DNA from: a virus
IMG/VR virus record: IMGVR_UViG_3300031857_000619
Span: 1 to 36,325 of that record
Length of the DNA stretch: 36,325 bases
Strand: one strand, 5' to 3'
Positions 5,212 through 35,557 of the stretch are shown one piece after another. Each line of letters opens with the position of its first letter. The first letter of the stretch is position 1. The notes under the pieces were generated by a model that ran no database searches, was not told where the DNA came from, and was given only the letters and a program-made list of their open reading frames with translations. The position numbers were made by a program, and so were the translations under genes.

Positions 5212-5319
5212 ATGGCACTAACCATCCAAGACCTAGAGAAGCAAGCGGCACAAGAGGGAGTACCCGTGTACGTTATACTAGACAGAATTGTATTCAATTT
5301 AACTCATTCAAAAAACTAA
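5212..5319 (+). CDS. Very small hypothetical protein (35 aa)
   Basis: A short frame starting 1 nt after the stop of the RHH gene: an acidic helix (IQDLEKQAAQEG) followed by a beta-like hydrophobic stretch (VPVYVILDRIVF). It is supported mainly by its tight packing between coupled genes and its codon continuity with them. No family is recognised. Confidence 0.4.
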   Translation: MALTIQDLEKQAAQEGVPVYVILDRIVFNLTHSKN

Positions 5320-5322
5320 ACC

Positions 5323-5496
5323 ATGACAGAAGTAAAAATCTCAAAAACTATTGAACGCCCTGAAAATATTTCGTATCTTGCATGGGTTAATTATGTTCAA
5401 ACCGAACTACAAAAAACTCAAGAAAAGAATTTAAAAACCGAACTCCGTAGCATCCGATATGGCGGTAATTATATTTTGAAAATGGAAATGAGATAA
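5323..5496 (+). CDS. Hypothetical protein (57 aa) whose stop lies in an attC-like site
   Basis: The ATG follows AAAAAACTAAACC, the usual start signal, 3 nt after the previous stop. The product is a mixed charged peptide (residues 28-46 rich in K, E and Q). Its TAA stop (5494-5496) lies inside the left core ATAAC of the first attC-like fold, the same arrangement as in the two cassette genes downstream. It may be the remaining gene of an older cassette whose left border is gone, or a phage gene that ended at a site used for insertion. Confidence 0.55.
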   Translation: MTEVKISKTIERPENISYLAWVNYVQTELQKTQEKNLKTELRSIRYGGNYILKMEMR

Positions 5497-5582
5497 CGGT
5501 TGGGTGTATGAGAAGGTTTGCTTGTAGAAACTTTCAAATTACCACTACCGTTGATAGCAAACTTTCTTATACACCTTGTTAT
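5493..5582 (+). repeat. attC-like recombination site 1 (complete)
   Basis: Outer cores ATAAC (5493-5497) and GTTAT (5578-5582) are complementary. After asymmetric spacers of 5 and 2 nt, an inner stem pairs 5503-5522 with 5556-5575: 20 pairs, two of them G-T. The loop is 33 nt. This R''-spacer-L''-loop-L'-R' layout with unequal spacers is that of integron attC sites, folded from single-stranded DNA. No integron integrase gene is in the window. Confidence 0.65.
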
Positions 5583-6168
5583 AAGCCGTTTTAATTGAAA
5601 TAATTTAATAACTAAAAATAAATAATATGGGAAGCGTAATTGATTACATTGAATGTCCAAGATGCAAACAAGAGAATTGCATAGACGATTTTTACTACAA
5701 ATCGGGTGAAGAATATATCAACTGCCCCGATTGTGGCTACCACAGAGTATTCCACTACAAAAGGGATGAAAATGGTAAATTTTTAAAAAAGGATGAAGCC
5801 AAAGGGTATGAGTTTGAAAACTTAGTCCCCGAAGAAACCCACATTGAAAATCCATACGGAGCATATCGTGTCGAAACAACTCTCGGAGGAGCTACTTGTG
5901 GAACATTAGAAACGGATGATGATTATCAAAAGTTTGTTTCTGAAATAGTATCATTAACCAACCAAGAACATAATATAAAAGAAGTGGTGGTTAGTAAATT
6001 GGTTGGTGATAAAATTGAAAAGGATGTCGTGTTTCAAAATGGCTTATAATGTAAAAGTATTGCCGAAGGTGGGGCATAGTACCACAAATATTGATTAAAT
6101 CACTAAAGTTAAATAGAATGAATACAGTTGAAAATTTGCACGTCAACCCCACTTTCGGCAATACAGTG
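5579..6168 (+). mobile_element. Integron-like gene cassette 1
   Basis: The unit runs from the cut point in G/TTATAAGCC (5578-5587) to the G of G/TTAGCAGCC (6168). Its 3' core GGCTTATAAT (6041-6050) is complementary to its own first bases GTTATAAGCC in 9 of 10 positions, as expected when a cassette circle restores its attC. It carries one gene (5627-6049) in the forward direction with its stop in the attC core. About 590 bp is a normal cassette size. Confidence 0.6.
5627..6049 (+). CDS. Cassette-borne zinc-ribbon protein (140 aa)
   Basis: Residues about 10-40 hold a four-Cys zinc ribbon: CPRC near 10, then CPDCGY near 34, with an extra Cys between. The rest is a charged alpha/beta region without recognised domain, including a Thr/Gly-rich loop (TTLGGATCGTLETDD) near residue 90. 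The gene lies 40 nt inside cassette 1 with an A-rich leader (AACTAAAAATAAATAAT) and stops within the second attC-like site. Zinc ribbons mediate nucleic-acid or protein binding; the actual role is unknown. A defence or adaptive function would be typical for cassette cargo but is not shown. Confidence 0.7.
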   Translation: MGSVIDYIECPRCKQENCIDDFYYKSGEEYINCPDCGYHRVFHYKRDENGKFLKKDEAKGYEFENLVPEETHIENPYGAYRVETTLGGATCGTLETDDDYQKFVSEIVSLTNQEHNIKEVVVSKLVGDKIEKDVVFQNGL

Positions 6169-6177
6169 TTAGCAGCC
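6041..6177 (+). repeat. attC-like recombination site 2 (complete)
   Basis: Inner stem 6057-6074 pairs with 6147-6164 over 18 positions with one G-T pair. The outer cores are GGCTTATAAT (6041-6050) and GTTAGCAGCC (6168-6177), which pair partly, as expected for a hybrid site between two different cassettes. The long 72-nt loop contains the ATG at 6118. The downstream gene therefore seems to be started from within the attC. Confidence 0.65.
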
Positions 6178-6507
6178 GTTAATTCGGTTTTCACAAGGCA
6201 CAAACCATTTTTTAGGTTTTCGGGTGTCTTTTTGAAATACAAAATTGGGCGTGAAAAGTATTGGGTGAAAGTATATCCAATTGAGCAAAATAATTTAAAC
6301 TGCAAAGGACTTCACGTTTGTAGGGTAGATACAGAAAAAGACGATAATGTTTATTATGTCAAACCCGAAAACCTTGAAAAATGGTTGCAGTCGGTTAAAA
6401 ATCATTTAGAGTGGAAAAGAGATTTGTATAAAAAACAATTAAAGGCAGAAACAGAACAAGACTATAACTCAATTGAGCTGGCTCGTTTTATGGGTAGTCG
6501 GTTTTAA
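6118..6507 (+). CDS. Hypothetical cassette protein (129 aa) with attC-encoded N-terminus
   Basis: ATG 6118 follows ACTAAAGTTAAATAGA and is preferred to a TTG at 6091. The first 17 or so residues (MNTVENLHVNPTFGNTV) are translated from the attC-like loop and arm; the cassette proper begins at 6169. The rest is a soluble protein with aromatic strands (FLKYKIGREKYWVKVYP, about 40-56) and a charged helical C-terminus (LEWKRDLYKKQLKAE). No in-frame ATG exists inside the cassette, so the attC may supply the start codon. No family is recognised. Confidence 0.6.
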   Translation: MNTVENLHVNPTFGNTVLAAVNSVFTRHKPFFRFSGVFLKYKIGREKYWVKVYPIEQNNLNCKGLHVCRVDTEKDDNVYYVKPENLEKWLQSVKNHLEWKRDLYKKQLKAETEQDYNSIELARFMGSRF

Positions 6508-6518
6508 TGGCTGCTAAC
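6169..6518 (+). mobile_element. Integron-like gene cassette 2 (3' attC truncated)
   Basis: The unit starts in G/TTAGCAGCC (6168-6177). Its 3' core GGCTGCTAAC (6509-6518) is an exact 10/10 complement of that start, and it follows the gene's stop (6505-6507) immediately. No matching inner stem or right core is found downstream, so only the left part of its attC remains. The 5' flank GCCGTTAATT resembles GCCGTTTTAATT at the start of cassette 1. Confidence 0.55.
6509..6518 (+). repeat. attC-like half-site 3
   Basis: GGCTGCTAAC is the exact reverse complement of the 5' end of cassette 2. The remaining site (L'', L', R') is not recognisable in 6519-6800, so the block appears to have been cut here and rejoined to phage sequence. 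Confidence 0.5.
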
Positions 6519-6560
6519 TCGTAGATATATGAAACTTTGCCCACTAAAATAAAGTTGATT

Positions 6561-6782
6561 ATGAATGTTTTATGTAGTTACAAAACAAAGTGGAGGCACA
6601 AGGTTTATCATTACTATGTTTGGACTGAATGTAAAAAATTGATTAACTTAAAAACGAATAAAGAAATAAAGAAAACCATAAAAGGCGGTAAAGCGGGATA
6701 TTACATTAACCGCAATTTTGTCAGCCTAGAAAAACTAAAAAGCGAAATAGAACTAATACCAAAACAAAATTGTCCATTTTAA
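6561..6782 (+). CDS. Small basic hypothetical protein (73 aa)
   Basis: ATG 6561 after CCACTAAAATAAAGTTGATT is preferred to the upstream TTG at 6537. The protein is strongly basic, with a beta-type core (KVYHYYVWTECKKLINLKTN) followed by GYYINRNFVSLEKLKSEIE, a strand-turn-helix arrangement reminiscent of short DNA-binding modules found beside phage nucleases (NUMOD-like), though I cannot confirm this. It lies between the truncated cassette and the glycosyltransferase gene. Confidence 0.5.
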   Translation: MNVLCSYKTKWRHKVYHYYVWTECKKLINLKTNKEIKKTIKGGKAGYYINRNFVSLEKLKSEIELIPKQNCPF

Positions 6783-32933: not shown

Positions 32934-33260
32934 TTATTTTTTCATTAATCTTCTTTCCAATCGGTTTATCTTTCGGTCAACGCTAATCTGTATTCTTTCC
33001 TTACAAAGCATCAACTCCATCTGCGCCAACATTATCTTTACATCAGCGACTTCCGAACACAAATCGTTGTAAGCACGGATTTCCTTTAACTCCATCCACC
33101 AACTAGGTTTCGTGATAGTATGCTCAACAAGTCCACTTCGCTTCAATTTATTGATAGCTTGGATAAGTTCTGCACTTTCTTCAACTACCATATCTAACTG
33201 CGACCTAGTGCCGTATCTTGATATAGCTTTTTCTAAGATTTCAATTTGTTCGGGTGTCAT
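32934..33260 (-). CDS. MazG-like nucleotide pyrophosphohydrolase
   Basis: ATG at 33260 overlaps the stop of the previous gene by one base (TAATG); a longer frame from a TTG at 33266 is less likely. The 108-aa helical protein shows the MazG signature: EESAE (Glu27, Glu28, Glu31) and SEVAD (Glu70, Asp73), with YGTRSQL before it and KINRLERRL near the end. Such enzymes hydrolyse NTPs or dNTPs to NMP and PPi. In phages they clean the nucleotide pool or lower host (p)ppGpp signalling. The assignment is by motif spacing and length. Confidence 0.7.
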   Translation of the reverse strand: MTPEQIEILEKAISRYGTRSQLDMVVEESAELIQAINKLKRSGLVEHTITKPSWWMELKEIRAYNDLCSEVADVKIMLAQMELMLCKERIQISVDRKINRLERRLMKK

Positions 33261-33535
33261 TAACAAGCGGTATAAGTGTATTCAAAAGTTTCATCGTTGG
33301 TAAACAAATCAATGACCGCCTCTGTTGGAATTAGTACAATGTGATACGTTTCACTACCTCTTTTTTTGATGTAAAGTTTTGGCTTACCCAAGTCTTCGCT
33401 TGAAACTTCGACCATCATTTTATCGCTTATGTGCTTGGTTAAACAAAAGCCGTAATAGCCACTACGATTAAATTCAAGGCTATCAGACATATCGGTTCTC
33501 TTAAACCCTAGCTTAATGTATTCTTTGTAATTCAT
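33260..33535 (-). CDS. Hypothetical protein (91 aa)
   Basis: A small alpha/beta protein (DSLEFNRSGYYGFCLTK near 18-34; KPKLYIKKRGSETYHIVLIP near 52-71). The 'Y-I-K ... I-x-I-P' pattern recalls small phage accessory proteins but no family is recognised. It has its own promoter box (33560-33553) behind a terminator, and is coupled to the MazG-like gene by a one-base overlap. Confidence 0.6.
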   Translation of the reverse strand: MNYKEYIKLGFKRTDMSDSLEFNRSGYYGFCLTKHISDKMMVEVSSEDLGKPKLYIKKRGSETYHIVLIPTEAVIDLFTNDETFEYTYTAC

Positions 33536-35039: not shown

Positions 35040-35557
35040 AGCCAAATGTAGTTAGTTCCGCTAATCAGTTGCTTTGTTTCAAATCGCTTCTTTGCTTCTG
35101 CAATAGTCAATCCAAATGTTTTTTGAAAGTGAGGTGTATCTTTAAAGTTGACCCAATCACCGCCCCATTCCCAACCGAATAACTTGAATACATAAACAAC
35201 CTCTAACCAATCAGCAACGTTATCACCGTCAAAGTCTATTTTATTATCCCATGAAGCGGTTTCGTGTGTGCCATTGCCGTCTTTATCGTGAAGCATAACA
35301 ATGTCAATAGCTAATCCGTAATTGTGCCATGATTGACCGCCTTTTGCGTTTGTTACTTTTGCTCCTTTTGTCGTGCGCCCTTGTGCGTATAGTGCATCTT
35401 GTTCGGCAAAGGTGCGAAGCGTAAACGCAAACCTGCAAAGCACTCGACCGTTTAAACGCTCACATATTTCTTCGTATATCTCTTTGGCTTCTTGCCTTAC
35501 TGATGGGTGTAATAATTCAATCCTTTGTAGGGTTAATGCGTCTTTTTTTACACTCAT
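35036..35557 (-). CDS. Endolysin, peptidase M15 (L-Ala-D-Glu type) with calcium loops
   Basis: The 173-aa enzyme has the M15 zinc motifs: SWHNYGLAID with His78 and Asp85 (76-85) and DTPHFQ with His143 (140-145); GWEWGGDW (128-135) holds the likely catalytic Glu130. The N-terminal block TLRTFAEQDALYAQGR is typical of the M15C family. Between the motifs lie DKDGNG (91-96) and an EF-hand-like loop at 108-119 (Asp108, Asp110, Asp112, Asp116, Glu119), suggesting calcium binding, as known for the T5 endolysin. It cuts the peptide stem of peptidoglycan. There is no signal peptide, so release depends on the holin gene, which overlaps its start. Confidence 0.9.
   Translation of the reverse strand: MSVKKDALTLQRIELLHPSVRQEAKEIYEEICERLNGRVLCRFAFTLRTFAEQDALYAQGRTTKGAKVTNAKGGQSWHNYGLAIDIVMLHDKDGNGTHETASWDNKIDFDGDNVADWLEVVYVFKLFGWEWGGDWVNFKDTPHFQKTFGLTIAEAKKRFETKQLISGTNYIWL

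Follow-up and report, generated by a model that had tools for sequence, protein, structure and literature searches.

A segment of 1,021 bp in a phage genome (5498-6518 of the window, by which the whole analysed stretch is meant, 36,325 nucleotides of the IMG/VR record IMGVR_UViG_3300031857_000619) very probably consists of two mobile gene cassettes of an integron-like system that is borne by phages, whose cassettes are reversed and which serves the window phage in trans. The insert lies exactly between two copies of TAAC (5494-5497 and 6515-6518), with resident phage genes on both sides (Table 1). Sites, units, polarity, platform and exact-boundary exchange are read from the sequences themselves; all evidence is computational, and contigs of IMG/VR may be incomplete or wrongly binned.

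Table 1. Features of the cassette locus, in positions of the window
Feature	Position	Strand	Remarks
Resident phage gene, 57 aa	5323..5496	+	Stop TAA within left junction core; L005 copy 98% identical as far as TAAC
Left junction TAAC (target copy, R'' of attC a1)	5494..5497	+	End of L005 flank identity
attC a1, hairpin of cassette 1, on the 5' side of its gene	5488..5587	+	CM R1 48.9 bits
Cassette 1: stem + GTTATAAGCC + gene + GGCTTATAAT	~5498..6050	+	Bounds set by polarity test
Cassette 1 gene (product of 140 aa, N-terminus of zinc-ribbon type)	5627..6049	+	
attC a2, hairpin of cassette 2, with TAAT as degenerate left core	6041..6177	+	CM R1 32.1 bits; I2 inverted repeat
Cassette 2: stem + GTTAGCAGCC + gene + GGCTGCTAAC	~6051..6518	+	3' part recurs in L007
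Cassette 2 gene	6118..6507	+	ATG in attC a2 loop; frame passes right arm and R' core
Right junction TAAC + attI-like half site TAACTCGTAGATATATGAAACTTTGC	6515..6540	+	PWM of recombinase-linked attI
Resident phage gene after the insert, 73 aa	6561..6782	+	95% identical in L005

Two attC-type folds had been proposed in a preliminary description made from the letters of this DNA, and both are located where it had placed them, by an attC finder as well as by a covariance model of the attC family (CM R1), with E = 6e-9 for a1 and E = 1.3e-4 for a2 in a 466-kb search, the model having been built with a1 included and a2 left out. Like attC sites of integrons, they are imperfect palindromes with AAC...GTT outer cores; the stem of a1 has 21 paired positions and spacers of 4-5/1-2, while that of a2 has 18 positions that are 94% complementary, and the left core of a2, formerly given as TAAC, is actually TAAT. 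By chance such structures hardly arise, as 60 Markov shuffles of the window contained just 0.017 TAAC-stem-GTTA structures per window at a score of at least 10.5 and zero at 15 or above, and a1 scores 18.9 on the same scale. With its two attC sites and no integrase nearby, the window matches the definition of a CALIN (at least two attC, no integrase nearby), in a record that may be a fragment. An Rfam search of 5300-6700 gave no match, and a candidate for a third attC, at 6518-6620 behind cassette 2, was rejected, there being just a weak fold within the resident gene. The lengths of attC sites group near 46, 86 and 124 nt, with a spacing of ~38-40 nt.

The two units also have the complementary ends that are expected of a circular form. 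GTTATAAGCC (5578-5587) pairs with GGCTTATAAT (6041-6050) in 9/10 positions and GTTAGCAGCC (6168-6177) with GGCTGCTAAC (6509-6518) in 10/10, both as counted in the preliminary description, whose reasoning from circles holds: in 211 relatives, of the 6 positions that lie beyond the core a mean of 4.75 are complementary between unit start and unit end, compared with 2.28 across one stem within an array, and the circle signature is thus general in this attC family.

That the units are mobile had been suspected as well, and a comparison with related phages bears this out. In the sister phage L005, the left flank is 98% identical to the window up to TAAC and the right flank 96% from TAAC, and ~980 bp of different cassettes occupy the same site at which the window has 1,021 bp; the relatives thus differ exactly at the insert, and no ancestral genes are conserved across the junctions. 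The cassette 1 gene is found in three further viral contigs, each time with other neighbours; it is a single cassette in L003, is combined with another attC and a methyltransferase in L004, and stands in L002 (1864-2286) without any attC upstream, where it apparently is a fixed cassette. Of cassette 2, the 3' part recurs in L007, where a different attC and a DNA methyltransferase adjoin it. These swaps and recurrences indicate mobile units, and a turnover of cassettes at the phage locus. Cassette 1 has no match among isolated phages and only one weak partial match in plasmids, and genome searches that started from the cores mostly gave unrelated matches; of the five stretches that came from them, two were looked at, L015 with and L014 without the cassette architecture. 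Over 90 nt, the hairpin a1 shares 95.6% identity with an attC of L264, an array that bears a recombinase, and it is 85-94% identical to many other attCs; neither cassette gene of the window was found in any recombinase-bearing locus. Elsewhere in the window, a resident gene (33260-33535, minus strand) matches positions 6834-7119 of L005, where a cassette gene lies, with ~70% identity on the DNA level, and is a cassette-type gene without recognisable attC in the window phage.

The boundaries of the cassettes had been drawn with the gene first and the stem after it, and here hairpins and cores stand, but the order has to be turned round. The inserts of the window, L005, L003 and L015 all have a hairpin at the start and a gene and core at the end. 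The polarity test drew on 497 attC sites in viral contigs and related ones: where only the downstream flank was common to a pair at 90% identity or more, the stem was common too in 19/21 pairs, whereas it was common in only 1/11 pairs that shared just the upstream flank (Fisher p = 1e-5, the pairs not all being independent), and at 95% identity or more the stem goes with the downstream gene in 10/10 and with the upstream gene in 1/7 cases. In addition, 87/226 cassette genes have an in-frame ATG inside the hairpin with a frame that continues through R', and the gene of cassette 2 is such a case, which had been recognised before, but with a start that is now corrected to ATG 6118 inside the loop of a2. 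The linkage test together with the frames that begin inside hairpins means that the unit is a hairpin plus its downstream gene; the canonical polarity, with the attC 3' of its own gene, is rejected by the linkage test. Judged by this linkage, the cassettes of the family are gene-reversed relative to bacterial integron cassettes. In L233, L234 and L237, many long attCs encode a common N-terminus (MKDxKHIKxFNExxENLNISDV) that is fused to differing cassette genes, so that the hairpin there provides a start and a leader peptide.

It is the sense strand that folds better in 188/201 attCs, because the stems contain 618 G.T but just 25 A.C pairs, and G.T pairs turn into A.C on the other strand. In attC recombination IntI makes a strand choice, and by analogy the sense strand of these attCs is probably the one that is folded, cut and recombined.

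This attC type is present in at least 120 IMG/VR stretches, and several of the arrays are adjoined by tyrosine recombinases of ~270 aa. A search with one array-linked recombinase retrieved 178 viral contigs that encode it (~267 aa). The arrangement is very strict: 80 recombinase loci have 275 attCs upstream (316 kb) versus 1 downstream (435 kb) and none on the other strand, attCs lie upstream in 53/54 loci with at least 1.5 kb of upstream sequence, and all 193 matches of the covariance model on recombinase loci are on the plus strand. Terminase_6N is recognisable in 12/28 large recombinase-bearing records. The enzyme has the motifs R..K..HxxR..H..Y, scores 155 bits against the IntI profile TIGR02249 (cut-off 265) and finds its best NCBIfam profile in NF040815, 'site-specific tyrosine recombinase/integron integrase', with 172 bits (cut-off 220); its predicted fold (pLDDT 84) best matches the integron integrase 2a3v and then XerA. 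In a recombinase tree it forms a clade of its own, apart from the IntI of Bacteroidota, and only this separation of the phage clade from other IntI is used, since the branches of the flavophages are long and a misread frame underlies the row INTI_L044. An intI gene of the IntI family is lacking in the window, and the linked recombinase is below the cut-off. As the preliminary description had it, the phage contig has no integrase, and the array-linked recombinase was found neither in the window nor in the contigs of the relatives L005 and L006, all three of which may be fragments. The integrases of Freya and Ingeline were considered as well and set aside, being recombinase homologues of 37-39% identity with no attC nearby.

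Some 50 nt before the recombinase start there is a TAAC with a conserved TATTATATATAAACA-like half site after it, and this defines attI (TAAC, then TATTATATATAAACA); the sequence before the attI TAAC is unrelated between phages, the cassette core excepted. An attI beside a recombinase gene is therefore present in the relatives, whereas the window has just an attI-like half site and no recombinase. Exchange at this point can be followed in pairs of contigs: the platforms of L288/L289 and of L298/L299 are 100% identical, yet their last cassettes differ, and L253/L266/L267 have in common a near-identical cassette whose neighbour is attI in one contig but another cassette elsewhere, cassettes having been gained or lost at attI. 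All these breaks are at the TAAC core, and breaks of this kind between identical platforms are, by their sequence, footprints of site-specific exchange. The insertion site of the window, TAACTCGTAGATATATGAAAC, is second in attI likeness (PWM) among 297 TAAC sites, with a score of 14.6 versus a median of 23.4 for typical attI, and the insertion sites of L005, L003 and L015 rank 1 of 141, 1 of 171 and 1 of 100; those of L002 and L004 have a weak attI score (rank 7). Of all TAAC sites in the window, the one most like attI is TAACTTGAATACATAAACAACC at 35180 (plus strand), and it has no recognised cassette.

Ordinary phage mosaicism, in which small genes are swapped by homologous or illegitimate recombination and the hairpins are terminators or chance repeats, would agree with the free variation of small early phage genes and with the ability of hairpins after stop codons to end transcription, but it is very improbable in view of breakpoints at TAAC between platforms that are otherwise identical, of the rarity of such sites in shuffled sequence, and of a stem polarity and recombinase linkage that are near absolute. 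Equally hard to credit is a single-strand transposition of the IS200/IS605 type, with units that insert 3' of a TAAC target and carry a hairpin at the left end: the insertion at a tetranucleotide without duplication beyond TAAC, the left-end hairpin and the strand asymmetry of the hairpins would suit it, but what is linked to the arrays in nearly all loci is a tyrosine recombinase and not a reported HUH transposase, and the conserved attI half site by the recombinase and the 10-bp complementarity of the unit ends fit a site-specific recombination of circles.

With bacterial integrons the phage system shares folded attC sites with complementary outer cores, the circle signature at the unit ends, arrays of small genes, a tyrosine recombinase beside a divergent attI, and exchange at a G'TT/AA'C core. 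It differs from them in that the attC precedes its own gene, that the genes point toward the recombinase, and that the recombinase is carried by phages, belongs to its own clade and lacks the IntI-specific insertion of ~50 residues. The enzyme resembles Xer/XerA-type tyrosine recombinases in size and in its best profile, but is linked to arrays of hairpin cassettes, not to dif, and has its best fold match in an integron integrase. The recombinase-attI platform and the reversed polarity appear to be new, no open-access paper on either having been found in a search outside of which lay preprints and most subscription papers.

The preliminary description had taken a host integron for the source of the cassettes, and this is the point on which it is not followed. 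Cassettes of ordinary IntI integrons of Bacteroidota hosts, captured by the phage at a secondary, attG-like site, are conceivable, as IntI above the NCBIfam cut-off is common in Bacteroidota (105/395 genomes). Insertion at attG by IntI is known for other integrons, and the window is like such cases in having cassettes outside attI and joining at a short core, but its site resembles the attI of the phage recombinase and not that of IntI. Moreover, no attC of the family lies within 10 kb of the 20 Bacteroidota IntI genes examined, cassette 1 has no match in the bacterial genome collection, the stem-gene polarity is opposite to that of canonical cassettes, and the same attC sequences adjoin a distinct, non-IntI tyrosine recombinase in viral genomes. 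It is already known that phages have attC sites, including Polaribacter phage P12002L, and most of the phage attC sites assayed, among them attC2 of P12002L, are usable by IntI1 (Qi et al. 2023, PMC9892861). The CALINs and integrons of that study are like the present locus in that integrase-less virulent phages carry attC sites and methyltransferase cassettes, but there a bacterial IntI was assumed and no dedicated phage recombinase or attI was reported. The attC sites of P12002L were described there as divergent in direction, whereas the family model has three matches in that phage, all on the strand of the methyltransferase genes and two of them at the methyltransferase cassettes. An origin from host IntI integrons is on the whole unlikely.

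An integron-like system of Bacteroidota chromosomes with an Xer-type recombinase, of which phages would be but one carrier, is improbable too. Homologues of the recombinase with 35-56% identity (full-length up to 49%) are encoded in 101/395 Bacteroidota genomes, and in G113, G294, G033 and G051 such a homologue lies ~1-4 kb from an attC of the family; however, attCs of the family occur in just 17/395 Bacteroidota genomes screened and are mostly isolated ones, G113 looks like a prophage region, and arrays with recombinase are overwhelmingly found in viral contigs, though the genome search is less sensitive. The G113 locus (C1, ~249-255 kb, L098), on a Bacteroidota chromosome, is possibly a prophage; it has a recombinase homologue (47%), a methyltransferase and an attC, with several identical reverse transcriptases nearby that are like group II intron enzymes. 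At G294:C8, G033:C56 and G051:C46 the homologue is on the strand opposite to the attC, unlike the phage layout.

For the phage-borne system, we infer a mechanism in which circles, the strand used, the action in trans and the benefit would come together as follows. A cassette would be a circle in which a gene follows a folded attC, and a recombinase encoded by a phage would join it to a TAAC site, either attI or attI-like. As the sense strand would be folded and cut, the genes would come to face the recombinase and attI, opposite to the cassettes of bacterial integrons; phages with the full platform have the order (attC-gene)n - attI - recombinase. In the window phage the cassettes stand alone at an attI-like site, and the recombinase would have been provided in trans by another phage, co-infecting or resident. 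Because neither the window nor the contigs of its two relatives have a recombinase, the best reading is that the insertion was made by a recombinase of the array-linked family acting in trans, not by a host IntI integron. The predicted circle junctions are GGCTTATAAY-GGTTGGG and GGCTGCTAAC-GTAAAAG, and the empty site of the window would read GAGATAAC-TCGTAGATATATG.

What the cassettes carry is recognised by Pfam in only few of 100 cassette proteins from recombinase-bearing arrays, and these are N6/N4 and D12 DNA methyltransferases, a Lar-type restriction-alleviation protein, an RNA ligase and an exoribonuclease. The product of the cassette 1 gene weakly resembles Lar restriction-alleviation proteins (E 4e-4, under the Pfam cut-off). 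It is plausible that part of the cargo has an anti-restriction or counter-defence role.

In the current view, integrons are gene-capture platforms of bacteria, and attC sites in phages are stray pieces of them. It seems rather likely, if by no means certain, that phages own an independent integron lineage, with a dedicated recombinase, its attI, reversed cassettes and a pool that circulates among phages (DNA methyltransferases, Lar-like proteins, an RNA ligase and many unknown proteins) and from which phages without a recombinase are served in trans. If so, viruses would run a cassette exchange of their own, a natural set of attI x attC partners would be available for testing, there would be a second way to recombine folded single strands, one that does not need the IntI insertion, and the arrays would be a place in which to seek counter-defence genes.
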